Below, in pieces: positions 8,490-43,426 of a DNA stretch of 64,000 nt. A program made the position numbers and the translations under genes. The stretch spans positions 8,431,713 to 8,495,712 of the forward strand of contig OZ025871.1 in NCBI GenBank assembly GCA_964019415.1. Reading direction: 5' to 3'. Numbering within the stretch: position 1 is the stretch's first letter; every line of letters starts with the position of its first letter. The notes below the pieces were generated by a model. The model did not search any database. It was given only the letters and a program-made list of their open reading frames with translations, and was not told the origin of the DNA. Origin of the DNA: Ianthella basta (taxonomy: Eukaryota; Porifera; Demospongiae; Verongiida; Ianthellidae).

Positions 8490-10148
8490 CGAGTGGTAGT
8501 TGCAATGTATGCAGTGTCCCATTGGCATAGACTGGCTCCAGCAAGCGATGGATTTCTGCAGAACTTGCACCTTTCTCAATGGTGAGGCGTTTCAATGAAG
8601 GGAGTACAGAGAGACAATAGCCGTAGGCCGTGGAGTCATAAGCCGTCTCAGGCATCACTGTCACCTCTTCTCCTACAATACGTGGCATCAGGCGGCAAAC
8701 CAATGAAATGTCCTGCGTCTCATAGAGGCACTGCATCTGAAAGTCTGTGTGATATAAGTCTAATTTGTTTTGAAGGCGGTCAAAGTGCTGTAATTTAGTC
8801 AATCCACAATAAAAGCGCCACACCTGTGCCATGTGGGGCTCACCGAGATACCTGGCCCAGACCTCACACTGCCTGTCTGCTGTCAGGAGAGACACATAAA
8901 CAGCAGCAAGGAATTCCTGTACAGTCAAGTGGATGAAGAAGAAGCTTTCAATGGCACTCTTCTTGGACTTTGGATCGCATCGAATGGGCCTAGCTGTTAA
9001 AACACCACACCCTCTCTTACGGTCTGAGAAGCGCTCACCCAGGCCCTGGAGATCACTTGAATCAAACACTACTTTTTGCTTTTGAATGCACTTATAAGCG
9101 ATTTCGCCGAGTTTATAGATATCATGGTCTTTTGGAAGATCCATGATGGAATTCAGTTCGGGCAAGTCTTCGCTATACTTTAGTACTTTCACACAGAGGT
9201 AGTCATTGTAGATTTGTGTCAATGTTGGTGGAAGGTCCTCTCTAAATAGAAACACTTGACAAATGATGGACAGAACAACAGGGATTGAACAGAGACCTCT
9301 AATCTGTGGAAAAGCACCAATCTTCCGGACAAGCGTGTCAAGCATATCTGGTCGCCCTTGATCGGTGAAATATTGCTTTGCATAATTCTTAATCTGGTCC
9401 TGAGTGAAACCAAGCACCTCGATATTAACTAGACTAACTTGGGTACGAGCCTTCTGCATTTGGTGGTAGATCTCGCTTGTTACAATGGAGCGAGATGTTA
9501 GAATAACATCACAGTGTCGTAGAAGGGAATCACGGTTGTGTGATAGAAGGTTCACAAGGAAGGAAGACTGTCGAAGGTGAGGGGGAAGCTCATCAAACCC
9601 ATCCAGGATGAAGAGCACACCTCTTCCTAGGTTCTTATATAGTGCCACAGACAATTTCTCAAGCAACGTGCCTTGTGTCATCATTCCTCGGAACAGCTGC
9701 AGAATGTCCACTAATTGGAAATCATTTTTAAAGTGAAGCAAGTCTCGCAATTCAACTAAGATAGCCAAAGTGTAACCGTGGCAACCAGGGGTTTGACAGA
9801 TGTCTTGGCATATTTTCCGAGCCAATGTACTTTTACCAACGCCAGGAGCCCCGCTAATGATTACAAGTTTATGCTCCTTCACTAATCCCGGGATAGCCTC
9901 GCACTCTACCTTACCAGTCTGGTAGGTGTACACATTATCGGCACCTTCCCTCACGGCTTCAACAAACATCTCCTGGGCACGTTGAGCCATTAAATGGAAA
10001 CGAGCAAGGGCTAAGTTAACAAATGGTAAAGCCTGATCTGCAGGGAGCCACTCATCCTCGACAACCTTCATATTTATATAGAACTCCTGAAGGCAATTGG
10101 AAAAGGTCTCTACCTGTTCTCTTTCTCCGCCTCCCCCGCTTTCCTCAA
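8490..10148 (-). CDS. NLR gene 1, NACHT NTPase exon
   Basis: This large exon encodes about 552 residues with the core of a NACHT ATPase: Walker A (GAPGVGKST, about residue 100 of the exon), Walker B with the acidic cluster (LFILDGFDELP), and downstream winged-helix-like and helical segments. In NLR proteins this module binds ATP and drives oligomerisation. The start is a GCAG acceptor at 10148, not the internal methionine at 10071: the frame stays open upstream, and the phase-1 entry matches the phase-1 donor of the CARD exon at 12779. The exon ends at a GTGAGG donor (phase 1). It is intact, without stops. Other NACHT proteins are possible, but the CARD and LRR neighbours argue for an NLR. 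Confidence 0.93.
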
Positions 10149-12778: not shown

Positions 12779-13081
12779 CTCTCTTGAGCTGTTCTGCTAC
12801 CCTCTCTATTTCATCTGCCCAGATCACTTCTTTGCTATCACGCAGTATCCTGCAGAATTTCTGAAAGTCTTTGTCTCCTTTCTCACACAGAGTCTCAATG
12901 ACCCTGCCCACCTGGGCAATGTTGCTGGGTAACTCTCTTACCATCGTTGCCACATATTCATTCAAAAAGCCACCCGTTGCCTTGTCTAGTTTATGAAGTA
13001 GGTCTGTGTTCTTTGAAACATTAAGCTTCAGCTTTTCTCTTAAGAAGAGTAATGCGTCATTGTTCCAGGAACTGATTAGAC
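12779..13081 (-). CDS. NLR gene 1, second CARD exon (phase 1 to 1)
   Basis: This 303-bp exon encodes a CARD-like six-helix domain: LREKLKLNVSKNTDLLHKLD, a GGFLNEY turn, RVIETLCEKGDKDFQKFC and a C-terminal helix ending at EQLKR. CARDs mediate homotypic adaptor recruitment. The acceptor is CATACAG and the donor GTGAAG, both phase 1. The domain, its boundaries and the donor position within it match the first CARD exon at 21266-21580, so the two arose by duplication of a symmetric exon. It joins the NACHT exon in frame. Confidence 0.85.
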
Positions 13082-14677: not shown

Positions 14678-15054
14678 ATTTATTCGGGTATGGGCCAAAT
14701 AATAAATTGATCGTGCATCAGAAATTAGTCTTTCAGAACTCTCACCAAAATGCTCTCTTTTCAGTTTATCTGTTAGCTGTCTGTACCCGCCTTTCTCCAG
14801 TGCCTCTAATACAGAACGCCAAGTCCTCAGAGCTGAACCTGTACCAGGTTTGGCCTTCAGCCACTTGTTGAGGACTCTTCGACATGCCTCTTCAGACTGA
14901 CCAGGGATAACCCCTTTCACACTGTGAATAACAGAGGACAGCACCCCAAGGTGAAGCAGTACTTGTTCCCATCCATCAGTGATGGATCGTATTATGAACT
15001 CATCCAGCTCAGCCAGTGTAGGCTTGGATCTGATGTTGAGGAGGGCATGAGCAC
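14678..15054 (-). CDS. NLR gene 1, Death-domain exon (phase 1 to 0)
   Basis: This 377-bp exon encodes a Death-fold domain. DGWEQVLLHLGVLSSVI carries the conserved Trp and helix-1/2 leucines. It is followed by EEACRRVLNKWLKAKPG and then TWRSVLEALEKGGYRQLTDK, the usual C-terminal half of Death domains. The acceptor is CCTTCCTCAG and the donor the strong GTAAGT. The phase-1 start matches the phase-1 end of the upstream CARD exon at 21266. It provides a second kind of signalling module between the two CARDs. It could in principle belong to another minus-strand gene, but phase and order favour the NLR. Confidence 0.85.
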
Positions 15055-16074: not shown

Positions 16075-16312
16075 TGTAGTGACTGTATGGTTGCTGTGTT
16101 GTGTTACCTGTAGTGCTGTGTGGTTTCCTGGGGCCTTGTATTAATATTTGGTTTTGCCTGTTTCTGCATGGATGTAGTTTTTGATTGGTTATGTATCATG
16201 TGACTTGCATGGAGCACGTGTGCCTTGTTCTGGTGTAATTGGTGTGGAACCACATGCGAGTGACCATTAGCGTCCGCAGTTGTTTGTGCTTGGATAGTGC
16301 CCGACCTCGATA
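16075..16312 (+). repeat. 5' LTR of the Gypsy element
   Basis: This 238-bp direct repeat begins TGTAGTGACTG and ends GACCTCGATA. It does not end in the usual CA, but the perfect target duplication fixes the boundary. It is followed directly by the primer-binding site. Confidence 0.93.
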
Positions 16313-16313
16313 T

Positions 16314-16330
16314 TGGCGACGAAGGTAAAG
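16314..16330 (+). promoter_or_regulatory. Primer-binding site of the Gypsy element
   Basis: TGGCGACGAAGG starts one base after the LTR. The leading TGG is the complement of a tRNA 3' CCA, as needed for minus-strand priming. The tRNA species was not determined. Confidence 0.7.
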
Positions 16331-16342
16331 CAGGAATGGACA

Positions 16343-17419: not shown

Positions 17420-20216
17420 TGGCCCGAGCCTTTTGGGGAGGGACTGGCTGGCCAAGCTAAAGCTAGATTGGAGTACCATCCTTGCAGTACGAGCTGAGAA
17501 AGAACTGCAGAGTGTCTTGGATAGGTATGAAATGGTCTTCAGTCCAGGGCTGGGCTTGATTCGAGGTGTGGAGGCAAGGCTTCACGTGGACCCTCATGTC
17601 CAGCCACGATTCCTCAAGGCACGCTCTGTACCCTACGCACTACGGTCGAAGGTAGAGGAGGAACTCAACAAGCTGGAAAGTGAGGGTGTGATAGTTCCAG
17701 TACAACACTCCGAATGGGCAGCTCCAATAGTACCTGTGCTAAAGAGCAATGGGATGGTTAGAATTTGTGGAGATTTCAAGTTAACCGCAAACAAGGCAAC
17801 CAAGACTGAGGTGTATCCCTTGCCACGGATTGAGGACCTGTTTGCCTCCCTGGCCGGGGGCAAGATGTTTTCCAAGTTAGATCTGTCACATGCCTATTTA
17901 CAGCTACCCCTGGCCAAGGAGTCACAACCATTCGTGACGGTGAACACGCACAAGGGGCTGTACCGCTATCAACGATTGCCGTTTGGAGTTGCCTCAGCTC
18001 CCGCCATTTTTCAACGAACCATGGAGTCGGTGCTACAAGGCCTCACTAACGTATGTGTGTACCTGGATGATATACTCGTTTCAGGCAGGTCAATGCAGGA
18101 GCACCTGGTGAACCTTGAGGAGGTCCTCAAAAGACTGGAAGAAGCAGGGCTGAGACTGAAGAAAGAGAAGTGCTCCTTTCTGATGCAGGAGGTGGAGTAC
18201 TTAGGTCACCGGATCAGCAAGGAAGGCCTTCAACCCACTGAGGCTAAGGTACGGGCTGTGGCAGAAGCCCCGGAGCCCCAGCAAGTGGATGAACTGAGAT
18301 CTTTCCTTGGCTTGGTAAATTATTACGGCAAGTTCTTGCCCAGCCTGGCGTCCACAGCGGCCCCACTGTATCGTCTGCTCCAAAAGAAGGCCCACTGGGT
18401 TTGGGGGAAGGACCAGAGTTCTGCTTTCGAAGAGGTGAAGAAATTGCTTCAGTCGGCAGACCTGTTAGTACATTTTTACCCCCAGAAACAGCTGGTGTTG
18501 GCTTGTGACGCGTCACCTTATGGGTTAGGGGCAGTTCTATCTCATGTCATGGAAGATGGCACTGAGAAACCTATCGCCTTTGCCTCACGCACCCTAGCTC
18601 CACCTGAGAAGAGGTACTCCCAGCTAGATAAGGAAGCCCTAGCCATCATATTTGGGGTTAAGAGATTTCACCAATACCTCTATGGACGCCACTTCATCAT
18701 CCACTCGGACCACAAGCCCCTGATGTTTATCTTTGATGAGTCGAAAACAATCCCGGCAATGGCATCAGCGAGAATCCAGAGATGGGCCCTCACCCTGAGT
18801 GGATATTCTAACACCATTCGATACAAAGCAGGGAAGGAGCATGCCAACGCTGATGCCCTTAGCCGACTACCATTAGCAGAGGCACCAACCGAGGTACCCC
18901 GGCCACCAGAGACTGTCTTCCTGATGGAGCACTTGGCAGCCTTCCCAGTATCAGCAGCTAACATACGCTCCCAGACTGACAGAGACCCAACGCTGGCCAA
19001 GGTGACACAGTTTGTGACATGTGGGTGGCCTACACTTCCGGTCACATCCCCAGAGATGCAACCATTCAATCAACGACGTGAGGAGCTGAGTGTGGAAGAT
19101 GGCTGCCTGCTGAGGGGAAGTAGTGTCATTGTGCCGCCAAGTCTTCGGGGCAAAGTCCTAGATCAGTTGCATGGTGGTCACCCAGGCATTGGAAAAATGA
19201 AGGCCCTGGCCCGCCAGTATGTATGGTGGCCTGGACTGGATGGAGATGTGGAGGGGCGAGTGGAGAAATGTGTTCCCTGCCAAGACAACCGTAAGAGCCC
19301 GCCATCGGCACCATTACACCCTTGGGAGTGGCCCCAAAGGCCCTGGGTGCGGGTGCATGCTGACTATGCAGGACCATTTTTGGGGCACATGTTTCTGATC
19401 TTGATAGATCACTCTAAGTGGCTAGAGGTTCCCATGACCAACTCCTCGACTTCATCGGTAACTATAGAAAAGATGAGAAGCAGCTTCGCGACTTTGGGTC
19501 TTCCTGAGCAACTGGTCACAGACAACGGACCTTCCTTCACCAGTGAAGAGTTTGCTCTGTTTTTGCAGATGAATGGGATTAAGCACATCACAACCGCCCC
19601 ATACCACCCGGGATCCAATGGGCTGGCAGAACGGGCCGTACAGACGCTTAAGTCAGGACTGAAGAAGATCGCAGAAGGCAGTTTGGCTAACCGCCTGTCT
19701 AGATTCCTCCTGAGCTACCGAACTACGCCTCACTCAACAACGGGAGGGACACCCTCAGAGTTGATGTTTGGTCGTCAGCTGCGGACACGTATGGATCTGT
19801 TGAAACCAGACATTGGCAGGAGGGTACGTTTCCGTCAGGATCAGCAGAAGCAGGGGCATGATACCCATGCAAGACCCCGAGAGTTCGCGGTGGGCACTAA
19901 GGTGTATGCCAAGAACTTTGGTAGAGGGTCCCTTTGGTTGCCTGGAGTTGTTCAAGAAGCAAAGGGGCCAGTTTCCTACACGGTAGAGTTGGAGGACGGC
20001 CGGGTTGTCCACAGACATGTAGATCATGTACAAGTTCGTACACCCACAGATGGTGTACCACAAGAGGCTGACGAGGCTGATGACTTTTTCCCGGTCGACA
20101 TTCCAACTCCAAGCTCTGATCTGTCAGTGGCTCCGGCTGGCCCTTCCGCAGGTCCTCGACGTTCCTCCCGTCCCCGCCACCCTCCAGATCGTCTCGTATT
20201 CTGGGGTGCCAATTGA
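17343..20216 (+). CDS. pol: Gypsy Pol: protease end, RT, RNase H, integrase
   Basis: The frame shown starts inside the protease domain and has no ATG of its own; it depends on the gag frame. In order: protease C-terminal part (LLGRDWL), RT with LPFGVASAPAIFQ and the catalytic VYLDDILV, RNase H (LACDASPYGLGAVLS), integrase zinc region (HPGIGKMKALARQYVWWPGL) and the catalytic core with DNGPSF and the ERAVQTLK helix. No clear chromodomain follows; the C-terminus is Pro/Ser-rich. Apart from the single frame break in the protease no stop interrupts it, consistent with a young copy. Confidence 0.92.
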   Translation: MVGELSVKVQCQGQVEQLPLVVVAGDGPSLLGRDWLAKLKLDWSTILAVRAEKELQSVLDRYEMVFSPGLGLIRGVEARLHVDPHVQPRFLKARSVPYALRSKVEEELNKLESEGVIVPVQHSEWAAPIVPVLKSNGMVRICGDFKLTANKATKTEVYPLPRIEDLFASLAGGKMFSKLDLSHAYLQLPLAKESQPFVTVNTHKGLYRYQRLPFGVASAPAIFQRTMESVLQGLTNVCVYLDDILVSGRSMQEHLVNLEEVLKRLEEAGLRLKKEKCSFLMQEVEYLGHRISKEGLQPTEAKVRAVAEAPEPQQVDELRSFLGLVNYYGKFLPSLASTAAPLYRLLQKKAHWVWGKDQSSAFEEVKKLLQSADLLVHFYPQKQLVLACDASPYGLGAVLSHVMEDGTEKPIAFASRTLAPPEKRYSQLDKEALAIIFGVKRFHQYLYGRHFIIHSDHKPLMFIFDESKTIPAMASARIQRWALTLSGYSNTIRYKAGKEHANADALSRLPLAEAPTEVPRPPETVFLMEHLAAFPVSAANIRSQTDRDPTLAKVTQFVTCGWPTLPVTSPEMQPFNQRREELSVEDGCLLRGSSVIVPPSLRGKVLDQLHGGHPGIGKMKALARQYVWWPGLDGDVEGRVEKCVPCQDNRKSPPSAPLHPWEWPQRPWVRVHADYAGPFLGHMFLILIDHSKWLEVPMTNSSTSSVTIEKMRSSFATLGLPEQLVTDNGPSFTSEEFALFLQMNGIKHITTAPYHPGSNGLAERAVQTLKSGLKKIAEGSLANRLSRFLLSYRTTPHSTTGGTPSELMFGRQLRTRMDLLKPDIGRRVRFRQDQQKQGHDTHARPREFAVGTKVYAKNFGRGSLWLPGVVQEAKGPVSYTVELEDGRVVHRHVDHVQVRTPTDGVPQEADEADDFFPVDIPTPSSDLSVAPAGPSAGPRRSSRPRHPPDRLVFWGAN

Positions 20217-20473: not shown

Positions 20474-21265
20474 GAATAAAGTTTGCACTCTTCGTTTTGC
20501 TACATTGTGTTCTCTAATGTGATGTAAGTGCTTCACTGTAGGACTCACCAGCGCCGAGAACGGGTCAAAAGGTTGCTGAACGGAAGCATTCTGCAACACG
20601 AAATATGCCTCTCCAAAAGCTACCATAGCTTCTACAAACAAGCACCTTGGCCAAAACTCGTGATTCGTAATGCTGAATAGCATGATGACTGCGAAAGGAG
20701 CAAAGACCTACCCTTTCTTTTCCGTATGTGAGTCGTTTCCAATTCACTTAACCATTTGCTTGCTGTCCGCCATTTTGAACTAATTAGGTCCCTAGGCCCT
20801 ATCCTTTATGTATGCATACAGGAAGTTGTGGTCATCATAGTTTACACAAACAGTTTGTATAGCTATCCGCTGTATAAACAATTCCTTACAGGAAGGCCCC
20901 ACAGCTGTATGGCCAGTCCTTAATGGGCCTGAGTCTGTTGTACCTCCAGGTTATGCTGTCACCAGATACCTAGCTACCGCAGCACGACATGTTAAGACAA
21001 AAGAGTCAACCTACACATGACCATACACTAAAGGTAGGTACAGTAATACTGCCCAACTGAAATCAATGCACCGTCGCACAACATGCTGACGCTGGCGTGC
21101 TGTCATCGACGCGTCGGAGCAGGGAAGCCCACTGAAGGTGGGCTTTCCTGCTAGTATTGCTAATTTACATAAATGACCAATAGTGAGTACATTAACAGGC
21201 ACAGTCACATTCGTAAATGGTACCAGTGAGTTGCTTCCTTCTCGCACACATATCATTACCTCCAC
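20474..21265. other. NLR gene 1 intron, segment right of the Gypsy insertion
   Basis: No exon or repeat family recognised. The sequence is non-repetitive by eye apart from short palindromes near 21100-21150 (GGAAGCCCACT ... GTGGGCTTTCC). Confidence 0.45.
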
Positions 21266-21580
21266 CTTGTTTGAACTGCTTAGACAACCTTTCCAGCTCG
21301 TCTGCCCAGACGCCTTGGTTACTGTTTCGCAGCATTTGGCAAAATATCTCAAAGTCATCATCTTTTTTCCCTCGCAGAGTCTCAATGACCCTGTCCACTT
21401 GGTCACTGCTGGTGGGCAATCCTCTCACCATCTGTGCCTCTCTTTGGCTCATGAATCCTCCCGCCACCTTCTCTAGCTTATCACTGAGGCCTGTATTCAT
21501 TAATGCATTGAGTTTTAGTCTCTCTCTCAAGGAGATTAAGGCAGCAACATTCCAGGAACTCATGGGATGGGGTTTTCCAT
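21266..21580 (-). CDS. NLR gene 1, first CARD exon (phase 1 to 1)
   Basis: This 315-bp exon encodes a CARD: LRERLKLNALMNTGLSDKLE, GGFMSQREAQMVRGLP, RVIETLRGKKDDDFEIFCQM and the last helix up to SKQFKQ. The acceptor is TGTTACTTCCAG and the donor GTGGAG, both phase 1. The first two bases complete the codon left open by the 5' exon at 26335, so the 2A-bearing leader reads straight into this domain. The exon is paralogous to the CARD at 12779-13081 with the donor at the same residue. Together with the Death domain it gives a CARD-DD-CARD signalling half, an unusual arrangement. Confidence 0.87.
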
Positions 21581-23215: not shown

Positions 23216-26092
23216 CAATGCAGTGGTCGAAATAACGTCCGGTCATCGGTCAAATTCCGAACATTTTTTTAAATTGACCGCGCATTATTCCATATGGTCG
23301 GTACGCGTGACCGATCACATGTGCATGGTTGTGCAATAGCTCTATTCACCAACAGGAACACTGGAAGAACGAGTCTTTGTTCCAGTGTTCTTTGTGAGTT
23401 AAGTTGTTCGTTCGTTTCTCTTATCGAGTGGAAGCTTTCCAGATTGCTAGCGTCCAACAATCGTCCACTATGAAGAGAGGCGGTGCCGGCACCCAGGAGG
23501 GAGGGAGCGACGCTAAGAAGCGGCGAGTTGGTTACGCTACGTTCCAGAAGTGGCAACGTGAGCTTGATCGCGAGTACCAGACGATGTCGTGGCTGGACTG
23601 CTCTAGCGAGTACAAGAGCGAGAAGAAGGTGGTGACCAGGCTGAAGTGCAAGGTGTGTAGCGACTTTGTAGAGAGAATCCGCACGGGAAAGAACTTTAGT
23701 GACAAGTGGATCGTTGGCGCCAATTCTGTCAGGGTAAGCAACGTCCGTGACCATGTCCAAAGCGATCAGCACGCTCACGCAATGATGCTTCTGAAGAAGC
23801 AACGTGCTAAGTCTGCAGGACTGCCTCCCTCAAGCTATGCTCCACTTGCTCAGGCGTTCAATAGGTTGTCAGGTGATGAGAGGGGGAAACTGCGATTCAA
23901 ATTCGACATTGCCCATTTTGTAGCAATTGAGAAGCTTCCATTCATCAAGTACCCTCAGATTTGTGAGCTGGAATCTCACCATGGAGTCAACCTTGGTACT
24001 TCATACACCAATGAATATGCAGGAAGGGAAATGATCCACTTCATTGCCGAATCTAGAAGACAGGAGTCGAGAGAAAAGCTTGCCAAAGCCAAGTTTTTTT
24101 CTTTACTTTTGGATGGATCGACAGATACTGCCAACATCGACAACGAACTTATTCTTGCTGTGTGGTGTGATCGTGACGGAGGTGATGAGAGGATTCACAC
24201 ACGAATGGAGTACTTCACGGTTGTGCGCCCTCAGGCTGTTACAGCTGAAGGCCTCTTCCAGGTGTTGGAGACTGCACTGCAGGGCCTTGGCATCAAGGAG
24301 GTCTCGGCTGAGACATGCCTGAAGCTGGTTGGGATAGGTACAGACGGTGCTGCTGCGAACATAGCAGCAGCAGGGCTGAAGGGTCTGGTTGAGGGACGAT
24401 TGAGTTGGGTGTTTTGGATGTGGTGCATGGCTCATCGTTTGGAGCTAGCCATCAAAGATGCCTTGAAGCCCACTGCTTTTGCTCTGGTCGATGAGCTATT
24501 GCTGAGGCTCTATTACCTCTATGAGAAATCTCCGAAGAGATGCAGGGAGCTGGAAGACATCATCAGCGATCTGAAGGCATGCTTTAGCTTCGATGATGCT
24601 GGAGTCAAGCCTGTTCGTGCCAGTGGCTCTAGGTGGGTTACACACAAGCAGAATGCCATGAAGCGAGTGATCTCGAAGTTTGGTGCCTATACCAACCACC
24701 TAGCTGCATTGAGTGAGGACAAGTCTGTAAGGCCTGCTGATCGTGCGAAGCTGAAAGGGTACTACAGCAAGTGGACAGATGCCAAGTACCTTTTTGGGTG
24801 TGCCTTGTTTATTGACCTGCTGTCACCCTGCACAACCTTTTCCAAGTGCATGCAGAGTGATGAGGTGGACATCTTGGGAGCACTCAATGCTCTTCTGAAA
24901 ACTTTGAGGGAGACGGAGAAGCTTGCAGCAAAGCCTCTGGACCAGTGGCCAACGTACGCTGCAACTCTTGCAAAGTGCACCTGTGAAGAAGGAGACACAG
25001 TCTACCAGTGCCAGAAGCTCCAGAGGTATCCTGAAGCACTGAGCTATTATTCGTCCAAGTACAAGGAGTACTGCAGTGCTGTGAGCGAGCACATCAAGTC
25101 CAGGCTGTCTTGGTCTGACCTCCAGTTAATGCGAGACATCATTTTTGTGCTTAGCTCACATGGCTGGGAGAAAGCTGTCGAGGAAGAGGATGATCTGGCC
25201 GCCATTGACAGGATAGTTGAGCGGTTTGCCACTCCACTTCTAGGTGCTGAAGCTGACACCAATGCGATCAAGGGGGAATTTGCCAACATGATTGAGTATG
25301 CAGTGCAATACATGGCCATTGCTACACTTGATTACCACTCAGTGTGGTGGAGACTCTTTCATGCCCCCAATTCTGCTGAATGGTCGAATGTTCTCATCCT
25401 TGCTGAGCTGCTCTTCTCCCTTCCAGCATCCAATGGAAAGCTGGAGCGAGTGTTCTCTACACTTGCTACAATTAAGACTGACAAGCGCTCTCGCCTCAAT
25501 AACGAGTCATTGGATGACCTACTGCTATTGAACAGCACCAGAATCCCAATCACAAGCTTCGATCCTGACCCCAGTATCGATCTATGGTGGTCAGCCAAGG
25601 CCAGGAGACCTTCTCAGAGAGAGAGGAAAGAGTACAGACCTCGCAGCAGTGATCTCCCCGGCCCATCAACTTCTCGTGATATTGAAGAAGACTCTGAGAG
25701 TGAAGCAGAATATATGCTGGAATGTTGGGATGAGCTATTCGATAGTGACTGATTAACAGTATCTTTTCCTTTTTTTGCATTTCCCACATGTAGTTACACT
25801 TTAACTTGAACTCTTAACATTTTGCTTCATTCAACACTTTCATGTGAAATCTGCATCCTGTATTGATGACTGTATATGAGTAGTAATAATTAATTTTGTG
25901 ATTTTGTCCTCATTGCAACACTGTAAGATGTGCACGACCGAACAAAATTCAATATGACCGAACAAACTCAAGAGTGCTTGGACGCTTGACCAACGTGCAT
26001 GACCGAACAAAATTCAATATGACTGAACAAACTCAGGAGTGCTTGGACTTTTGACCGAACAACCAAAAAACCTTATTTCGACCACTGCAATG
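23216..26092 (+). mobile_element. hAT-type DNA transposon with 5-bp CAATG duplication
   Basis: The element spans 23221-26087. It starts CAGTGGTCGAAATAA and ends with the exact reverse complement TTATTTCGACCACTG, and CAATG is repeated on both sides. Near the 3' end two direct repeats of about 57 bp (25937-26050) contain ACCGAACAAAATTCAATATGA; GGTC/GACC motifs recur near both ends, as expected for transposase binding sites. Most hAT families make 8-bp duplications, so the 5-bp one points to a divergent subgroup. It sits in the intron between the 2A exon and the first CARD exon. Confidence 0.92.
23470..25752 (+). CDS. hAT transposase, apparently intact, 760 aa
   Basis: One uninterrupted frame from the first ATG. 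The N-terminal part is basic, with a C-x2-C ... H-x4-H arrangement (CKVC ... HVQSDQH) resembling BED/TTF-type DNA-binding fingers. The RNase-H-like catalytic core contains SLLLDGSTDTANIDNE and GIGTDGAAAN, followed by CMAHRLELAIKDAL. The C-terminus has the hAT dimerisation region (LPASNGKLERVFSTLATIK ... LNNESLDDLLLLN). Family members cut and paste DNA. With intact termini and ORF, this copy could still be active. It is related to the ZNF862-like hAT proteins. Confidence 0.93.
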   Translation: MKRGGAGTQEGGSDAKKRRVGYATFQKWQRELDREYQTMSWLDCSSEYKSEKKVVTRLKCKVCSDFVERIRTGKNFSDKWIVGANSVRVSNVRDHVQSDQHAHAMMLLKKQRAKSAGLPPSSYAPLAQAFNRLSGDERGKLRFKFDIAHFVAIEKLPFIKYPQICELESHHGVNLGTSYTNEYAGREMIHFIAESRRQESREKLAKAKFFSLLLDGSTDTANIDNELILAVWCDRDGGDERIHTRMEYFTVVRPQAVTAEGLFQVLETALQGLGIKEVSAETCLKLVGIGTDGAAANIAAAGLKGLVEGRLSWVFWMWCMAHRLELAIKDALKPTAFALVDELLLRLYYLYEKSPKRCRELEDIISDLKACFSFDDAGVKPVRASGSRWVTHKQNAMKRVISKFGAYTNHLAALSEDKSVRPADRAKLKGYYSKWTDAKYLFGCALFIDLLSPCTTFSKCMQSDEVDILGALNALLKTLRETEKLAAKPLDQWPTYAATLAKCTCEEGDTVYQCQKLQRYPEALSYYSSKYKEYCSAVSEHIKSRLSWSDLQLMRDIIFVLSSHGWEKAVEEEDDLAAIDRIVERFATPLLGAEADTNAIKGEFANMIEYAVQYMAIATLDYHSVWWRLFHAPNSAEWSNVLILAELLFSLPASNGKLERVFSTLATIKTDKRSRLNNESLDDLLLLNSTRIPITSFDPDPSIDLWWSAKARRPSQRERKEYRPRSSDLPGPSTSRDIEEDSESEAEYMLECWDELFDSD

Positions 26093-26334: not shown

Positions 26335-26584
26335 CTGTCTCCACTGGTCCAGGGTTGAGCTCCACATCTCCACTCTGATTGAGGAGGAGTCGGGGAGGCA
26401 TTGCAGAAGTTAACAAGAGCAGGTAAAGAAGTGGAAGGATCCCTCTCTTCACCGCATGCGTGTTGGACCTGGAGGACGAGGGAGCAGCTGTCATCTTCGC
26501 TCCTCCTCCTTTCAACAACCACCTCATTCGACTGCAGTTAAACAGCCCAACAGACACGCGCCACTGCTGGGCGGAGATGGGCAT
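26335..26584 (-). CDS. NLR gene 1, 5' exon: hydrophobic leader with 2A motif
   Basis: The exon carries a basic stretch, a hydrophobic segment (GILPLLYLLLLTSAM) and, 15 codons after the hydrophobic core begins, the 2A consensus in SGDVELNPGP (26345-26374). 2A peptides make the ribosome skip the final Gly-Pro bond. The exon ends six residues later at CAG|GTGAAT; the phase-1 junction is completed by the first CARD exon. The start is ambiguous: the first ATG in frame is at 26584, with further in-frame ATGs near 26513 and 26489; a stop lies upstream near 26695. Sea urchin NLRs are known to carry 2A leaders that act as signal sequences, giving secreted and cytosolic forms. The same is inferred here. 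Confidence 0.78.
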
Positions 26585-27477
26585 CTTGCAATGCCTGAAC
26601 ACAGAGGGAAGAGGGATCGCAATGATCAACTCTAACACGTAACATACGTAAGCCGCCCCAAAACATTCAATCGCACTTAGCAAACAATCCTAGTCAATAG
26701 TTTAATTAAGGTCATATCAGATGAAGGAAACAGACAAGTACTCACGCTGCGACTAGCTCAAAGAAAAGGAAGGTAGCCGAGAAATTGGCAAGGCCAGCGA
26801 CTACTGAATTAGTCTCGTCCCCAGCCCACTTCCGGTCGACATTTTTGCAATGGCCCGAAAACGTGGTCTCAGGGGGGGTCGCTCAAGGTCACGTGTGTCC
26901 GCAAAATGGCCGACGCGGCTGCTCTTTACTGTGTATTTTACCTATACTAGCAAAGAGCAGACATATTTCGAGAAACACGTCGCATCGCTTGTTTCTTTGC
27001 TTCTGAGCACACAGTTGGACAAGGGCTATCAGAAAATGGACCCTTCCCCGCCCTTCCCCAGTATCTAGGTAGGTTTTGCGAGCATTTTCCAACACCGGTG
27101 TACGAGTGTTCGCTGCTGCTGGCTACGAGGCAGATGAAGCCTAATCTGGAGTACTGAGCAAGTGCTCCTGTGGAAGTGACTCCTTAGAAGCTGGTAGCGA
27201 GTCCTCATTGATCACTTCAGGACTGCAAGACTGATAGGTTGACTGCTTCTGCAATGGGAGTGCAATCGGCAGCCACGTCCTTGCAATCGTCTTGGTTCTG
27301 TACACGATTTGTCACATTCGATAGCAGGGATGCTAGAAATGGCTTAAGCGTGCTGGCAATCCTCAGGAAACGCTGCGATAACGTGCAAAACTAAATCGTG
27401 AAAGCGGTCAGACAATTAAGCCCAATCCACCGTATGGCTCCTTGGCTACGTACGTACGGGTCATACCGGGGGCGCGA
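26585..27477. promoter_or_regulatory. Presumed 5' flank of NLR gene 1
   Basis: This is the region upstream of the 2A exon on the minus strand. No recognisable core promoter. It contains one terminal copy of the AGTCTCGTCCCC repeat at 26811-26860 and no other gene. Its promoter role is inferred only from position. Confidence 0.3.
26811..26860. repeat. AGTCTCGTCCCC-type terminal repeat, solo
   Basis: AGTCTCGTCCCCAGCCCACT and the following TTCCGG block match the ends of the fold-backs at 31098-31184, 53660-53745 and 56690-57335. No second arm is obvious here. Confidence 0.6.
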
Positions 27478-30400
27478 ATGCAGTACAAGGCGGGAGTCTC
27501 GAAAAAATGGCGGACACAACGTGGTCTAGAGCAGCTGATCGTATTTGATTCAGGAGACTGTACAAATCTCTTATCTGTTATCTGTTTCAAGTCGATCATG
27601 TCCTGCTGTAAATGTAACAGAAATGGTACCTGTGCAGGACGCAAATGCGCCAAATCGACCAAAAGGTGTACGAGTTGTTTGCCGATGAAACTGAATAACT
27701 GTCAGAACAGAGATCGATCAAATCATCCAACGTCGCTGGAGATGCAGGAGAGTTTAGGCGGCCCAGAGAATGAAGAGGCTGGCCTTCCACTCGGTGGTAG
27801 ATGCGGCAGAGAAGTCGAACCAAACGAACGACTGGATTGTCTTGAAAGCCTGCCAGAACCTGAAGAACCTAACTTTGTTTGGGGAAACGATCTGCCTGGT
27901 GATATATTCTGCGACAGAGTTAACAAAGCTTATGAGGAGGTTGTCCATTGGCGAAGGAATGTCTTTCTATTACCCTTTGGAAAAGTGTCTAAGGCCTTTG
28001 TACAAGAAGTAGCTGACCTAATGCAAGCTTTTGCGCAGAAGACCAGCTTGGAATGCATTGCTTTGAAAGCGTGCTTCCTAATGCAAACCCTGCTTTTGCA
28101 AAAGCCCGGTGCAAAGAGTAAGGCCAAAGACCATGTTAACCATCTAAAAAGACGGTTTGAAAGCTGGAAAGAGGGAGACATTGAAGCCCTACTTGCAGAA
28201 GGAAGATGCATTCAAGCCCACCTCCCAAGGAGAACTCCCTCACCAGAAGATGAATCTGTCTCCCGCACGTTCAGTAAGATGATGTTTGCTGGGAATGTAC
28301 ATGGAGCTCTCAATTACCTGTCGCGGAAATCCACTGGCTCCCCTTTGAAAATCGATGATGTCATAACTATCAGCAATGGAAGTTCTGTCACCGTTGAAGA
28401 GGCTCTTTTGTCCCTCCATCCTGAGGCCAAGTCAGTTGATAGTGCTGCCTTATTGGAGAATACTTTAGAAAATGCACTTCCAGTTGACCCAGTCATGTTT
28501 ACATCCATCAATGGTCTCATGATTAAGGACATTGCTTTGCATTCAACTGGAACAGCTGGACCGTCGGGCATTGACGCAGCTGCTTGGCGCAAGATGTGCT
28601 CGTCGTTTAAAGAGGCTTCCTCTAATCTGTGTGATGCCATTGCAGGAGTTGCCAGGAGGATGTGTACTGCTCGTGTTGCTCCCGAGGCTTTGAGCGCCCT
28701 ACTAGCCTGCCGACTAGTTCCACTCAACAAAAACCCAGGGGTTCGCCCAATTGGGGTTGGGGAAGTTGTGAGACGCATCATCGGCAAAGCTGTTATGAAA
28801 GTACTGAAGAAGGATGTCATGCTTGCAGCTGGTCCTCTGCAGACATGCTCTGGCATTCCTAGTGGGGGTGAAGCAGCAGTTCATGCAGTGAGAGATACTT
28901 GGGAGAGATCTGACATGGAAGGTGTTCTCCTAGTAGATGCCTCAAATGCCTTTAACTCCCTGAATAGGAAGGTCGCTCTCCTGAATATGAAGCATGTCTG
29001 CCCTGCTCTGGAAGTGGCACTAACTAACTGCTATCAAAACCCATCACGCTTGTTTGTGTCCGGAGGAGGAGAGATTCTCTCAAGAGAGGGAACCACTCAA
29101 GGGGACCCTTTAGGCATGGCCATGTTCTCACTTGCTATGGTCCCTCTCATAATCAAGCTAATGGAGCAATCGGAATCTACCGTTCAAGCTTGGTTTGCAG
29201 ATGATGCAACAGGTGTGGGGTCGCTCCAGAACCTCAAACAATGGTGGGATGGCCTGTCTACCATTGGTCCACTCTTCGGATACTATCCGAATGCAGCCAA
29301 GACTTGCCTGGTAGTGCGGGATGAGCAAGAAGAGGTGGCTAGGCAAATCTTTGACAACACAGATGTCGTCATTACCACAGAAGGAAAGAAGCATCTGGGG
29401 GCTGCAATAGGGTCACCAACCTTTGTTGAAGACTTCTTTTCACTCAAGGTGAAAGAGTGGACAGATGAAGTGGAGAAGCTAGCTGCTGTGGCTGGAAGTC
29501 AACCTCAGGCTGCCTATGCAGCCTTTGTACATGGCACCAAACACAAGTGGAACTACTTATGCAGAACCACTCCCAATTGCAGCCATCTGCTGCAGCCACT
29601 GGAAGATGCCATCCACCAGAAGCTGATTCCTGCCATTTCCGGTAGACCGTCATGCTCGCAGGTTGAAAGAGGTCTACTAGCGCTTCCAGCAAAGCTTGGC
29701 GGATTGAGCTTATCAAATCCAACTACTGCAGCCCAATCGGAGTTTGAGGCTTCAAAGAAGATAACTGCATCCTTGGTGCAGTCAATTATCCAGCAAAGAA
29801 CATCCTTTGAGAATGATCCCACTCAGGCGAACCCCAGTGTGAATGTTGTGAAGAAAAGAAAAGTGGAAGAACAGAAACGAAACCATGAGGAGATTCGCAA
29901 CGAGCTTGAACCCTCAAGCCAGAGGCTGATCGATTGCGCATCAGAACCTGGAGCTTCAGCATGGCTCACGGCGCTACCTCTGGAGGAGCATGGCTTCTGC
30001 CTCTCTAAGGGATCCTTCAGAGATTCACTATGCCTGAGATATGGATGGCCTATCGTTGATGTCAGCTCGAGGTGTGCCTGTGGCACAGCTTTCTCAGTGG
30101 AGCATGCTATGACATGTCATAAAGGTGGTATACCCACCTTAAGGCACAACGAGATCCGTGACCTGACAGCTGAGTTATTGAAAGAGCAAGCATCAAATGT
30201 CTCAACCGAGCCAAGACTACAGCCACTACATGATGAGAGATTCCAGTTCAGGTCAGCAAATAGAGAGGATGAAGCAAGACTTGATGTGAGAGCAAGTGAC
30301 TTCTGGTGTAAGGGACAGGAGGCCTTTTTTGACATTAGGGTTTTCTACCCAATTGCCCCCTCTTATCGCCAGAAGGATCTTACTGCTCTGTACCGCATGC

Positions 30401-30912
30401 ATGAGCAAGAGAAGAAGAGACAATATGCTGAAAGGGTGAGAGAAGTCGAACACGGAGTCTTCACACCTTTGGTCTTTGCTTCCACTGGAGGTATGGCAAG
30501 GGAGTGTACCATCTTTTTCAAAAGAATTGCCGATACTCTCTCTGACAAGAAACAGATCCCTTTTTCACAGATCATGTACCTGATTAGGTGCCGCATCTCA
30601 TTTGCCCTCTTACGTTCTGCAGTCAGGGCAATCAGAGGATCGAGATCATCCAGACGGCCAGATGACTGTGGCATTGATTTTGACCGTGCCATCACGGAAG
30701 GCCAACTGTGATATAGCCAATGTGTGTGTGACTGCAGTAACATAATTATGTATTTAGGCAATGCAACTTGTTGTAAATTTAGTATTATATGACCTTTTGT
30801 TTCCTTTTTCCCTTTTTTTTCTCATTGTACATTTCCCTTCCAAGGCAGTGCGCATGTGTGCCTTATGTAATAATATTAATTGGTGGCTCTTCTTTCCTAT
30901 GCAGTACAAGGC
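27478..30912 (+). mobile_element. CXC-RT-endonuclease retrotransposon E1, intact, 14-bp TSD
   Basis: The element (about 27492-30898) is flanked on both sides by the same 14 bases, ATGCAGTACAAGGC (27478-27491 and 30899-30912). It has a short 5' leader, one ORF and an A/T-rich 3' tail without terminal repeats, the layout of a non-LTR retrotransposon. It is the only one of three relatives with an unbroken ORF, and it does not sit in the 38-bp array. Confidence 0.88.
27598..30711 (+). CDS. Single-ORF RT with CXC-like N-terminus and REL-type endonuclease
   Basis: A frame of 1037 codons from the ATG that begins the Cys-rich region, chosen because both relatives start at the same place. Residues 3-40 have paired Cys (CCKCNRNGTC ... 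CTSCLPMKLNNC), resembling a CXC DNA-binding motif. The RT core follows: PIGVGEVVRRIIGKAVM, VDASNAFNSLNR (about 442), GTTQGDPLGMAMF and FADDA (about 530). The C-terminus has CACGTAFSVEHAMTC (about 827), RHNEIRDL and a RLDV ... FFDIRV pair. This is the order of a CCHC finger plus PD-(D/E)XK restriction-like endonuclease in R2-type elements. The product would nick DNA and reverse-transcribe from the nick. Confidence 0.85.
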   Translation: MSCCKCNRNGTCAGRKCAKSTKRCTSCLPMKLNNCQNRDRSNHPTSLEMQESLGGPENEEAGLPLGGRCGREVEPNERLDCLESLPEPEEPNFVWGNDLPGDIFCDRVNKAYEEVVHWRRNVFLLPFGKVSKAFVQEVADLMQAFAQKTSLECIALKACFLMQTLLLQKPGAKSKAKDHVNHLKRRFESWKEGDIEALLAEGRCIQAHLPRRTPSPEDESVSRTFSKMMFAGNVHGALNYLSRKSTGSPLKIDDVITISNGSSVTVEEALLSLHPEAKSVDSAALLENTLENALPVDPVMFTSINGLMIKDIALHSTGTAGPSGIDAAAWRKMCSSFKEASSNLCDAIAGVARRMCTARVAPEALSALLACRLVPLNKNPGVRPIGVGEVVRRIIGKAVMKVLKKDVMLAAGPLQTCSGIPSGGEAAVHAVRDTWERSDMEGVLLVDASNAFNSLNRKVALLNMKHVCPALEVALTNCYQNPSRLFVSGGGEILSREGTTQGDPLGMAMFSLAMVPLIIKLMEQSESTVQAWFADDATGVGSLQNLKQWWDGLSTIGPLFGYYPNAAKTCLVVRDEQEEVARQIFDNTDVVITTEGKKHLGAAIGSPTFVEDFFSLKVKEWTDEVEKLAAVAGSQPQAAYAAFVHGTKHKWNYLCRTTPNCSHLLQPLEDAIHQKLIPAISGRPSCSQVERGLLALPAKLGGLSLSNPTTAAQSEFEASKKITASLVQSIIQQRTSFENDPTQANPSVNVVKKRKVEEQKRNHEEIRNELEPSSQRLIDCASEPGASAWLTALPLEEHGFCLSKGSFRDSLCLRYGWPIVDVSSRCACGTAFSVEHAMTCHKGGIPTLRHNEIRDLTAELLKEQASNVSTEPRLQPLHDERFQFRSANREDEARLDVRASDFWCKGQEAFFDIRVFYPIAPSYRQKDLTALYRMHEQEKKRQYAERVREVEHGVFTPLVFASTGGMARECTIFFKRIADTLSDKKQIPFSQIMYLIRCRISFALLRSAVRAIRGSRSSRRPDDCGIDFDRAITEGQL

Positions 30913-31849: not shown

Positions 31850-31982
31850 GGGGGATGTGATATATGACAAGATGGCGGACAGTTATGGGAGATCTGTGTG
31901 ATTCGAAACTTCATTTGAACTTGATTTGAAACTTCAATTGAGATTTGGGAGATTCGAAACGTCAACGTCTGAGCCCTGTATT

Positions 31983-34803
31983 ATGCCTACTTGTTGTCGG
32001 TGCAACGGCAACGGCAAATGCAAGAAATGCTCATGCTTTCGCTCTGGGTCTGCGTGTACGGACTGTCTGCCCCTTCGAAGAGGACACTGCGAGAACACTC
32101 GACAGAACTCTCGACAGGAACCCGCGATAGCTTCAGATCTGGATCCCACAGAGTATGCCTCTCAGGAGACGCCCGAATCTGACAGCGATTCCAGAGAGTC
32201 AACCATTCAGGAGGGACAGACGCTTGCCTCCGACATTCGGCAGCTACAGACCAGTCAGACCCCAGAGCAAGTTCGATCTCTCCCCCTCTTCAACCCGATG
32301 TCGTGTGATAATGCCTCTTGGCAATCCAGATCAGGCAAGGAATTCTCTGATGCCATTGATGACGCCTATTCCCCGATTGTTCACTGGAAACACAATCTGT
32401 TCATGGTACCATCTGGATCACAGGGCAAGAGATTTGTTGGTGAGCTTGCACGCTTGTTCAATGCCCTGGTAGATGAATCTGCAATTGAAGCCTTTGCAAT
32501 CAAAGCAGCCATGACCATGCCAGCACTCTTACTCCAAAAGCCAAGTGTTAAGTCCAAATCAGCTGATCACGTGAACTGCCTAAGACGTAGATTCGACCTA
32601 TGGGAGAAGGGAGATATACCGGAACTGGTCAGGGAAGGCTTGGCAATCCAAAGACAATTGCAAGGGTCTCGATCACGCAGAGATGAGAGGGAGGAAGCCC
32701 GAATTGCACGCAGGTTCTCTAAACTTATGATGGAGGGAAGGGTCAAGGCCGCTCTCCGGTACCTATCCAAGAGACAACATGCAGGACTCCTCAGACTAGA
32801 CCAACTCATGACTGAAGATACAACCTCTTCATCCACGAAGACGGTCAGAGAGATCCTCGAGGACAAACACCCTGATGCTGCCCCTGCCTCTGCTGATGCC
32901 ATCCTCAGTATGCCCAATGAAGAGCTTGGAAGCAACAAGTTCCATCCAATCCTATTCGACAGCATAACAGCAGAAGACATTAGAGCATCTGCTCTACGTA
33001 CAGAGGGTGCTGCCGGCCCTTCGGGGCTAGACGCCATGAGCTGGAGGCGCCTATGCACTGCTTTTGGTCAAAGCTCTAACGATCTCTGTCATTCCCTGGC
33101 TGCCTTTGCCAGGAAGATTAGTACCATCTATCTTGACCCATCGAGCCTGAAGGCTTACACAGCCTCCAGGCTTATCCCCTTGGACAAATGTCCTGGTGTA
33201 CGGCCAATTGGGATTGGTGAAGTTTGCCGCAGGATCATTGGGAAGGTCATCATGAAGTGTGCTAAGCAGGACCTACAGCGGGCTGTGGGCTCTCTCCAAC
33301 TGTGCACAGGACAAGATGCAGGCTGCGAAGCAGCTGTCCATGCTATGGCCCACATCTTCGCTCAAGATGACACAGAAGCAATGATCTTCGTTGATGCTGC
33401 AAATGCCTTCAATAGACTGAATAGACAAGTTGCTCTGCGTAACACTCAAGTTGTCTGCCCAACCCTTGCCCCTGTCCTGATCAACACCTACCGCGAACCT
33501 TCTTGGTTGTTTGTGGATGGTGAGCTCATGCTATCTAAGAAAGGTACCACCCAAGGCGATCCCTTGGCCACGGCCATGTATGCAATTGGAACCCAACCCC
33601 TGATACGCAGACTTGATGGCATTGCTAAGCAGGTCTGGTATGCTGACGACTCTGCCGCAGGGTCAAGTATAGACAGACTTAAGGCATGGTGGGACAGGCT
33701 AGAAGAGATTGGCCCACTATATGGATACTTCCCCAAAAGCTCCAAGACTGGAATCCTAGTGAAGCAGGAAGTTGCTGAGACTGCTAAGGAAGTCTTCCAG
33801 GGCACCGGTGTCAAGATCTCCACAGAGGGTAGTAGATACCTAGGAGGTGCTATTGGCACAACACCTTTCCTAATAGACTTTGTCGAGAAGAAGGTAGAAG
33901 AGTGGACAGAAGAAGTATTAACCCTCAGTGTATTTGCCAGAACACAGCCCCATGCCGCTTATGCGGCATTTACTCATGGCCTCTCATCCAAATGGAACTA
34001 CCTTCTGCGTCTTATGGACTTGGAAGCATTGTCAGCCTCTGAGCTGCTACAGCCACTGGAGTGCACAATTCGGTCACAGCTCATCCCCGCATTGACTGGC
34101 CAAAACCCTCCAGGGGACTTGATGCGGGAGCTGACTGCACTTCCAGTACACTTGGGTGGACTCGGGCTAATCAATCCAAAGACATCCTCTTCGCAGATAC
34201 ACATGGCCTCAAAGATGATCAGTGCTCCTTTGGTAGACCGAGTTGTGCATCAAGATCATCAACTGTCAGATTGCCATGTGGTCCAGCAGCGTGCTAAAGT
34301 AGAAGTGCAATCCAAAAGACGAGTCAACCAGCAAGAAGAGGCCTCAAAGCTGCAGAAACGGCTCCCTGCCAACCTCCAACGCTGCATGGAACTGGCACAA
34401 GAGAAAGGAGCATCAACTTGGCTTTCTGCGCTACCCATCGACAGCCATGGGTTTGCGTTGCACAAGGCGGCTTTCAAGGATGCGCTGTCACTCCGATATG
34501 ATTGGCCATTGGAGAACTCGCCATCCCATTGCAGCTGTGGCCAACCATTCAGTGTGGAGCACGCTCTATCTTGCCCAACTGGAGGGTTCCCCTCCATTAG
34601 GCATAATGAGGTGAGAGACATGACGGCATCCCTACTAACAGAGGTTTGTCATGGGGTGTCCACTGAACCACACCTACAACCCATGACTGGAGAGGCAATG
34701 ACCCATCGATCAGCTAATGTGGAGGATGGTGCAAGACTGGATGTTGCAGTACAGGGTTTCTGGGGAGGCAGATTTGAGAAGGCATTCCTTGACATAAGGG
34801 TAT
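31983..34803 (+). pseudogene. E2 polyprotein, 5' part (CXC, RT, start of endonuclease)
   Basis: The ATG at 31983 opens the same Cys-rich start as E1 and E4: CCRCNGNGKCKKCSCF, then CTDCLPLRRGHC. The RT motifs are PIGIGEVCRRIIGKVIM, VDAANAFNRLNR, GTTQGDPLATAMY and YADDSAAG. The C-terminal region has CSCGQPFSVEHALSC, RHNEVRDM and the first part of the endonuclease, ending at FLDIRV. There the nested element breaks the frame. Up to that point about 940 codons are open, so the insertion and the later frameshift are the main lesions. Confidence 0.85.
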
Positions 34804-34831
34804 TAGGTCATAGGCAGTGATCGAGAAAAAG

Positions 34832-35572
34832 ATGGCCGCTCGCGTGCTAGCGGTGTTGATAGCGTCGTTTTGGTTTGCAGTGTTTGTGGAGAAGTCTTGG
34901 ATCTTTTGTGGAGAAAGTCATTGGCATAGCTACGAGGACAGTTTTAAACCCACCGAGAGCTTCACAACCTGCCTGCTGCCGAGGTATCCCTCCGTCTGGG
35001 TTTATTCACACCTGGCGCGTTCGAGGAAGCGAGCCACTGAGGCCGTGAGGATTCTCCAGAGGCTCAGCCAAAGGAACAACAAGCTACTTCTCAGAAGTGG
35101 AGACGTGGAACAGAACCCAGGACCCTGTGCTGCTGCCACTACTACTACTGAACCCCAAAAGCCGTACGCTATACAGAAAGGTGAGAAGACGCTACGATTT
35201 GTCCACCTGAATACGCGCAGCCTCGTTCGCCACTTTGACGACGTTGCCTACCTAGTGTCCTCTATCCATCCTGAAGTCCTGGCTCTTTCCGAAACCTGGC
35301 TGAACTCTTCTGTTGTTGATTGTGAGCTTCGCCTGCCTGGTTATTCTTTGTTTCGTTGTGATCGTTCTCGTTGTGGTGGTGGTGTTGCCGTGTACTGTGC
35401 TGACTATCTGTCCTGTTCCGTACTTTCTTGTGGTGCTTCTTCATCTGGTATTGAGTACTTGTGGCTTTCTATTGATACTAAGCCCTTCTCCTCTCCGCTT
35501 GCTTTTGGCTGCTTCTATCGTCCGCCCAGCTTGCCTTCTCAATCCGTCCAAAACCTGTTTACAAATCAATGA
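34832..35572 (+). CDS. CR1/L2-like ORF, 5' part: 2A motif and APE endonuclease start
   Basis: The start ATG is followed by a hydrophobic stretch (VLAVLIASFWFAVFV), a basic region and a 2A consensus, SGDVEQNPGP (35096-35125). After it comes the first half of an APE endonuclease (FVHLNTRSL, ALSETWLNS, GGGVAVYC, FYRPPS). The frame ends in the middle of that domain at a TGA overlapping the next ATG (ATGA). The rest of the APE domain is in the following frame, so a small indel has split one ORF in two. 2A peptides are known in APE-type elements and would release the leader from the enzyme. Confidence 0.85.
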   Translation: MAARVLAVLIASFWFAVFVEKSWIFCGESHWHSYEDSFKPTESFTTCLLPRYPSVWVYSHLARSRKRATEAVRILQRLSQRNNKLLLRSGDVEQNPGPCAAATTTTEPQKPYAIQKGEKTLRFVHLNTRSLVRHFDDVAYLVSSIHPEVLALSETWLNSSVVDCELRLPGYSLFRCDRSRCGGGVAVYCADYLSCSVLSCGASSSGIEYLWLSIDTKPFSSPLAFGCFYRPPSLPSQSVQNLFTNQ

Positions 35573-42900: not shown

Positions 42901-43426
42901 GTCACTCCACCCCAGGTGCCTGTTATCGCAGACATGAGAGAGAGAAGAGTAGGTTCTATGAAGAGAGAATCCGCGAGGTGGAGCATGGCTCCTTTACACC
43001 ACTGGTGTTCTCAGCCACCGGAGGCATGGGGGCTGCAGCTGAGACCTTTTACAAACGCCTCGCGTCATTGATAAATGAGAAGAAGGACCAGAGATACGCA
43101 GTCACGATGGGCTGGATTCGATGCGCCATCAGCTTCTCCCTGATCCGTTCAGCGGTGATGTGTGTGAGGGGCTCGAGATCCAGCTACCACCACCCAATCA
43201 GCCCTGCCAGCTCGCCTGTCGATCTTGTAGCTAGGGAGGGCAGGGTACCAAGGTGGTAGCTAATCAGAACTAACTGAGACAGTCGTAATGTATTGTATTG
43301 CCTGTGATTCACTCTATAGTAATGCTCAGTTCCAGTGTACTACTTATTATTATTGTTCTTGTATTATCTCTTCCCTTTTTCTTTTTCTTCTTGTCTATTT
43401 ATGATATAATTTATTTATATTAGGCA
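39969..43426 (+). mobile_element. CXC-RT-endonuclease retrotransposon E4, in the 38-bp array
   Basis: The left junction follows TTTTACGTTGTC and the right junction precedes the same twelve bases, so the element duplicated part of a repeat unit. Layout as in E1: short leader, one ORF, A/T-rich tail. Two lesions in the ORF make it inactive. Confidence 0.88.
40093..43259 (+). pseudogene. E4 polyprotein with one frameshift and one nonsense change
   Basis: The ATG precedes CCRCNGKGICKDCPC and CVDCLPLRKQRC. RT motifs are PIGIGEVSRRIIGKAVL, VDASNAFNNLSR, GTTQGDPLAMAMF and YADDASAG. The frame is lost near 42480 at a G run. It continues with CVCGAQYNVEHALTC and RHNEIRDL, meets a TGA at about 42807 where E1 and E2 have an Arg before LDV, and goes on to FFDVRVFNPHASSNRH and the conserved tail ending near 43259. 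A CGA-to-TGA change is the likely origin of the stop. Both lesions lie C-terminal to the RT. Confidence 0.87.

Follow-up and report, generated by a model that had tools for sequence, protein, structure and literature searches.

Does an NLR immune gene in a sponge open with a detachable 2A leader that gives the receptor two possible destinations? The question is raised by a minus-strand exon in the stretch of 64,000 nucleotides analyzed here (the window; C4:8431713-8495712). N-terminal 2A signal sequences of NLRs, termed SpNLR2A, are known from the sea urchin Strongylocentrotus purpuratus, as excerpts of Roulston 2016 (PMC4981915) describe. We consider it probable that exon 26584-26335 (minus strand) opens the coding sequence of an NLR gene and encodes a detachable 2A leader with dual targeting.

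The leader coding exon comprises 250 nt with an open frame, from an ATG at 26584 to the last exon base at 26335. Its minus-strand reading is MPISAQQWRVSVGLFNCSRMRWLLKGGGAKMTAAPSSSRSNTHAVKRGILPLLYLLLLTSAMPPRLLLNQSGDVELNPGPVET plus one base (83 residues and an overhang G), and the C-terminal end is SGDVELNPGPVET with that further base, followed by the donor CAG|GTGAAT. Its parts are as follows.

26335..26584, minus strand: leader exon (coding part), with ATG, MPISAQQWRVSVGL module, basic linker, hydrophobic stretch, SGDVELNPGP and phase-1 donor
26345..26368, minus strand: 2A core DVELNPGP, 0.01 expected by chance; SGDVELNPGP has pN 0 and pS 0.13 in 19 copies
26402..26440, minus strand: hydrophobic stretch ILPLLYLLLLTSA, signal-peptide-like by hydropathy

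An earlier note on this DNA had described a minus-strand exon in which a hydrophobic stretch precedes SGDVELNPGP, and both were read from the sequence as stated, with an intact D(V/I)ExNPGP core. The same note placed the donor six residues later; it actually lies three codons plus one base past NPGP. Its claim of a phase-1 donor is right, because the overhang G of the leader exon and the AT at 21580, in the CARD exon, complete a codon. The best 13-residue hydropathy in the leader is 2.19, in a segment that begins 31 residues ahead of the NPG end, and likeness to a signal peptide was judged from this hydropathy alone. Four residues of the window leader are private, seen in none of 20 other copies, and one of them is a polar N beside the core: the window reads RLLLNQ before SGDVE, and the other sampled copies read RLLLIQ except L025, which has a stop.

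Two matches to a degenerate 2A pattern occur in the window, where shuffles predict about 0.01, and 360 genome-wide (173 + 187), where a reversed control gives none. With 0.01 expected in the window and no reversed-control match in the genome, a chance motif was rejected. The second window match, at 35102-35124 (plus strand), lies inside a retrotransposon-like ORF; therefore, the 2A motif alone is insufficient to identify an NLR leader, and its surroundings decide. By eye, the ORFs at 34814-37968 (plus strand) resemble those of a non-LTR retrotransposon, and their start carries RSGDVEQNPGP. A single window contains both 2A elements and a 2A NLR leader.

The surroundings of the leader in the window consist of four further exons on the same strand and of insertions in two introns.

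21260..21580, minus strand: CARD1 exon, phase 1 to 1; Pfam CARD at 25.5 bits (cut-off 23.9)
14746..15054, minus strand: Death-domain exon (DD), phase 1 to 1; weak alone, a relative passes the Pfam cut-off
12779..13081, minus strand: CARD2 exon, phase 1 to 1; 52-54% identity to CARD1
8490..10148, minus strand: NACHT exon, phase 1 to 1; Pfam NACHT at 72.7 bits (cut-off 26.7)
23398..25752, plus strand: hAT transposase ORF within intron 1; this insertion makes the leader-CARD intron longer
16298-17419 and 17316-20216, plus strand: ORFs of a Gypsy-like element (by eye) within the second intron

The leader, CARD1, DD, CARD2 and NACHT exons are all open and all in phase 1, with compatible GT/AG borders. 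Since CARD1, DD, CARD2 and NACHT have AG/GT borders and lengths divisible by three, each runs from phase 1 to phase 1; their exact ends were assigned by reading the borders manually. Taken alone, DD gave a Pfam E value of 0.039 and CARD2 a weak 0.087, and a relative in locus L029 that is 65% identical to DD reached 3.5e-6, above the cut-off. Profile searches of the PDB were weak: DD matched PIDD death domains (E 0.0038 and 0.0057), followed by triosephosphate isomerase (0.056), and the CARD matched prefoldin first (0.038) and the APAF1 CARD third (0.17). A death-fold N-terminal domain and a NACHT domain are both found in the window gene. The architecture previously ascribed to it, CARD-DD-CARD-NACHT-LRR, stands in part: CARD and NACHT exceed their Pfam cut-offs, and DD and CARD2 are recognized through relatives. 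The LRR portion was not found, as profile searches of the five frames tried returned no LRR family, and LRR motifs were not in excess, as the minus strand has 4, of which two span stops, and the control strand 5. The short leader had no match in Pfam, and the sole match of a longer kind of leader, described below, was TMEM210 (E 0.13, below the cut-off).

Several other frames were seen in the window. On the plus strand, 27382-30711, 31902-34820 and 40072-43259 are large ORF regions that resemble one another and begin with a cysteine-rich part; the first gave 28.2 bits for RVT_1, just below the Pfam cut-off of 29.6. Two short minus-strand frames, at 59932-60297 and 5222-5449, are alike (PAGDQxSxQHLTLWGVPVD...) and may correspond to one and the same late exon in two different NLR genes, in which case the window might contain the end of a second NLR. 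A frame at 62565-63389 (plus strand) contains GESGAGKTE, which we take to be a myosin-like P-loop.

The leader is not confined to this gene. We searched a genome of 209 Mb in 96 contigs with the 84-aa short leader and obtained 32 full-length matches at 81-100% identity, the window included. Three matches on C95 and one on C51 resemble copies of C4 stretches and were left out, which leaves 28 non-redundant short leaders; the genome also holds a long kind (82 full-length and non-redundant) and a third kind. About 10 kb was examined from each of 20 short-leader copies, with the window exons as queries. NLR exons lie downstream in 14 of the 20 fetched copies, where the leader is followed in order by a CARD (5 copies) or Death exon (9 copies) and then by NACHT. 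The CARD copies (L010, L011, L012, L014 and L018) run leader-CARD-NACHT with a CARD1 that is 89-93% identical to the window's. Four of them (L010, L011, L014 and L018; 90-93% identity) have a leader-CARD intron of about 380 bp, and in L012 (89%) the CARD1 lies 3.7 kb from the leader. The Death copies with NACHT are L009, L013, L015, L016 and L019-L023. In L024-L028, a Death exon was found with no NACHT in the roughly 10 kb examined (1858 bases of L024, at 8.1-9.99 kb, read N), and L017 had none of the CARD, Death or NACHT exons within 10 kb. A NACHT exon was also reached downstream of a long leader (L029, ordered long leader-DD-DD-like-NACHT) and of a leader of the third kind (L030).

The donor ACAG|GT is kept in all 21 short leaders compared (the 20 fetched copies and the window). 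Column identity is 0.87-1.00 from just before the ATG through the donor and at most 0.68 outside, with gap-rich columns set to zero. An in-frame TAG occurs in three short-leader copies (L025 near 454, C4:5224247 and C4:4062748), and that of L025 directly precedes SGDVELNPGP.

The linkage was also counted from the opposite end, with the window NACHT exon as query. This search listed 76 exons of 446 candidates, and removal of three on C95 left 73. Of these 73, 58 have a same-strand leader in the 20 kb upstream, and 38 have one in the nearest 10 kb. A same-strand leader lies downstream of 28 within 20 kb and of 3 within 10 kb; the count at 20 kb reflects tandem arrays, and the contrast at 10 kb is free of that effect. 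None of the 73 has a leader on the opposite strand, and for 15 the upstream 20 kb contain no listed leader. The figure of 58 combines the 28 short and 82 long leaders of full length with places bearing the third-kind motif, of which there are at least 36, sorted by eye from about 100 of the 360 motif matches, possibly with an error. Without the third kind, leaders were found upstream of 43 and 25 of the 73 listed NACHT exons at 20 and 10 kb and downstream of 14 and 2. When leader pieces were admitted, with only the first piece of a split match counted and the two weakest matches dropped, 60 had a leader upstream at 20 kb, and the 10-kb comparison was 42 upstream versus 3 downstream. Leaders entered these counts by match, with the core integrity of each taken as listed, and leader rows on C95 and C51 were left out of the linkage counts in both directions.

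Counted from the leaders, a listed NACHT exon follows within 20 kb for 17 of the 29 short leaders, for 43 of the 104 long ones (with pieces) and for 15 of the 36 of the third kind, figures limited by the scoring of 76 of the 446 NACHT candidates. Many leaders are therefore still without a tie to a NACHT exon, and a protein search with the joined leader-to-NACHT sequence found no spliced relative at E ≤ 0.1 among 233 candidates. Full linkage in 14 of the 20 loci, and the many leaders that lack a listed NACHT exon, lower our confidence slightly. Even so, the 14 copies and the 58 NACHT exons support the earlier assignment of the leader to NLR genes, and gene order and phase would place it at their N-termini.

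This linkage bears on an origin from mobile DNA, in which the leader exon would be debris or a captured piece of a non-LTR retrotransposon that bears 2A, for instance the one at 34814-37968 (plus strand), and would lie outside the NLR gene. The window is rich in elements, and 2A motifs do occur in retrotransposon-like ORFs (at 35102 in the window and in L033), where the octapeptide stands early in the ORF as it does in the leader. Unlike the leader, however, these two ORFs lack the MPIS..QWR module and, by eye, continue towards an endonuclease and reverse transcriptase. The leader, moreover, lies upstream of most listed NACHT exons, always on the same strand, and keeps its donor and open frame. 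Given the ORF features and the same-strand linkage, we rejected this origin as hardly credible.

The case for the leader family is stronger than the case for the window gene itself. We regard it as possible, if doubtful, that the window copy is a broken or chimeric gene in which a leader and CARD1 stand beside the DD-CARD2-NACHT of another NLR, split by the hAT and Gypsy-like insertions; such a copy may be silent while its relatives work, which is compatible with the other readings. No fetched relative has the order CARD-DD-CARD-NACHT, and this absence, together with the private leader residues, indicates that the window copy may be chimeric or silent. Its introns are also enlarged by insertions, compared with the short leader-CARD intron of the four compact relatives. 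Against a break, all five exons are open and their phase-1 borders fit.

Further evidence comes from the other kinds of leader. The long leader has 144 aa, starts with MPISNEQWRVAVGLW and ends in SGD(V/I)ExNPGP(M/V)ERG in most copies; 111 matches were listed, from which the 82 were counted as full-length and non-redundant and from which 20 were hand-picked as a sample. The start MPISxxQWRVxVGL is common to short and long leaders. The core is canonical in 17 of the 20 sampled and altered in L039 (DAEANPGP), L041 (NPDP) and L044 (NGDVKINAGP), and the long leader of L050 has lost its ATG. The third kind is found mostly on contig C2, ends in LLLLAGDVEANPGPIQ|G and has frame shifts in some copies. 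Long and third-kind leaders are interspersed in a tandem array on C2 at about 1.10-2.16 Mb and 3.6-3.9 Mb, on the minus strand where listed. The exons at L074 (2548-2889) and L075 (1669-2223) are chimeric: the beginning of a Death domain runs into the half of a long leader that bears the hydrophobic stretch and the 2A core, which may place a skip site within the N-terminal region as well. An internal 2A site in this region has been reported for some sea urchin NLRs in the excerpts of PMC4981915.

Selection on the leader was estimated from 19 of 21 short leaders, with L022 (indel) and L025 (stop) left out. The pN/pS ratio was 0.27 overall, 0.11 for residues 1-30, 0.66 for residues 31-47 (the linker) and 0.58 for the hydrophobic part. 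In SGDVELNPGP, the 19 leaders have no replacement change, with a pS of 0.13. Among the 20 long leaders, the ratio was 0.49 overall, 0.37 for residues 1-30 and lowest, at 0.21, for the core. We conclude from this pattern that the leader frame is translated and that its most important parts are the start module and the 2A core.

The constraint on the core argues against the leader being a plain signal peptide or anchor whose 2A core is inactive or marginal, which would make these NLRs membrane or ER proteins. A plain signal has no need of DVExNPGP, and the lack of replacement changes in SGDVELNPGP, at sites where silent changes do occur, would be hard to account for, as would the low ratio of the long-leader core. 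Some residues fit such a signal better: short leaders have Q where the sea urchin leader has R11, the window copy also has N at position 12, both differ from the tested sea urchin sequence, and 3 of 20 long leaders have an altered core. According to the excerpts of PMC4981915, changing R11 to A lowered recoding of the sea urchin leader, as did changes at the leucines 13-14 residues from its end. Leucines are present at those two positions in the window leader. We consider a plain signal distinctly improbable.

The constraint on residues 1-30 raises a different reading, in which the leader mainly separates two products, a small membrane protein (MPISxxQWR plus a membrane segment) and an NLR that is nearly always cytosolic, with near-complete skipping and no dual targeting. 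These residues lie far from the core and are the most constrained after it in both kinds of leader; the same start recurs in short leaders, long leaders and leader-like proteins elsewhere, and a signal peptide on its own could do without the module. We nevertheless find this reading unlikely. The hydropathy of the hydrophobic part fits a signal peptide, the unskipped sea urchin form was secreted in test cells (excerpts of PMC4981915), and natural core variants such as L044, with INAGP, would yield the fused product only.

We therefore return to the detachable leader with dual targeting, in which a conserved N-terminal module would be followed by a hydrophobic stretch that could serve as an ER signal and by a 2A (StopGo) core. 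RNA splicing would join the leader exon to the downstream NLR exons, and we infer skipping and two destinations. When the NPG|P bond is skipped, the leader would be freed and a leaderless NLR that starts with proline would be left in the cytosol. When the bond is made, the leader would emerge and carry the whole NLR to the ER. The hydrophobic stretch begins no more than 31 residues before the skip site and should at that moment still be enclosed in the ribosome exit tunnel, so the choice to skip or not would precede targeting. The linker and hydrophobic part are weakly constrained, a pattern that a signal peptide allows but that does not favor one.

The leader exon is also uniform among genes. 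Silent divergence in the same 12 genes was 0.074 for the leader and 0.343 for the NACHT exons, and the leader was lower in 59 of 66 gene pairs, which share genes and are thus non-independent. In the six CARD genes, the values were 0.077 and 0.169. This uniformity is maintained by gene conversion, exon exchange, or constraint at the DNA or RNA level.

A protein search recovered leader-like proteins that are 70-79% identical to the window's (P0011, P0016 and, in part, P0033-P0045). Two nearer ones, P0006 and P0007, are 87-90% identical and may come from the same species as the window. More distant ones, among the 28 of 120 listed that were examined, read MPISAQQWRVAVGKMN...GGDVERNPGP or MIDxxQWRVxIGLW...SGDVELNPGP. 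The residues that follow NPGP in leader-like proteins (such as KRGEYT and KTGNS) are compatible with a phase-1 donor, as far as protein sequences alone can indicate. In the open-licence PMC literature, we found no report of 2A leaders in sponge NLRs, although a prior mention is possible; PMC12909245 uses neither '2A-like' nor 'signal peptide'. We know of no explanation for the extra conserved N-terminal module of the leaders.

If the leaders work, ribosome skipping would be a regular part of an NLR repertoire in an animal other than a sea urchin, where CARD and Death receptors would both use it and one genome would hold several kinds of leader. The location of an NLR could then be set during translation, and the natural core variants would be ready test cases. 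The device would be either very old or built more than once from signal peptides, a choice that a comparison of leader exons from different animals can now address. The 2A tract is too short to prove an old origin or a repeated gain, and leader-like proteins with the same start also exist elsewhere. The absence of the MPISxxQWRVxVGL start from the sea urchin leader compared leads us to lean towards a separate gain. Tentatively, and with more doubt than conviction, we suggest a genome-wide translational address switch on NLRs far from sea urchins. A single codon would set the cytosolic or the secretory route, and each receptor would also yield a small QWRVxVGL membrane protein; leader exons would be kept uniform, chimeric exons would supply internal skip sites, and core mutants (L044, INAGP) would fix one route.

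How, then, does this family compare with known systems? Viral 2A/StopGo peptides, as portrayed in the excerpts of PMC12846837, have the canonical octapeptide in common with the leader. Unlike them, the leader belongs to a cellular gene and lies near the N-terminus, rather than between two large proteins. The closest likeness is to SpNLR2A, as far as the excerpts of PMC4981915 extend. There, a 26-aa leader gave about 80% skipping in vitro, most of the downstream protein stayed in the cytosol of human and plant cells but took the secretory route once the core was disabled, and a 2A-like sequence was present in 85 of 241 sea urchin NLR proteins. Activity was thus tested in the sea urchin leader only, and the leaders here are known from sequence. 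Recoding there was abolished by a proline-to-alanine change to which the INAGP of L044 is similar, and that genome, like this one, also contains 2A retrotransposons. The likeness in design that the earlier note drew is upheld: SpNLR2A is N-terminal on the NLRs of many genes, as the leaders here would be, and both have a hydrophobic stretch, leucines 13-14 and a terminal D(V/I)ExNPGP core. They also differ. The leaders here have 84 or 144 aa with an MPISxxQWRVxVGL start and a basic linker, whereas the sea urchin leader (one sequence compared) lacks this module; 18 (short) or 11 (long) residues separate the hydrophobic stretch from the NPG end, versus 10 in SpNLR2A; and, unlike SpNLR2A, CARD as well as Death NLRs are involved and chimeric Death-2A exons occur. 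The device itself is known from the sea urchin, and the family described here differs from it in length, start module, domain company, kinds and internal copies.
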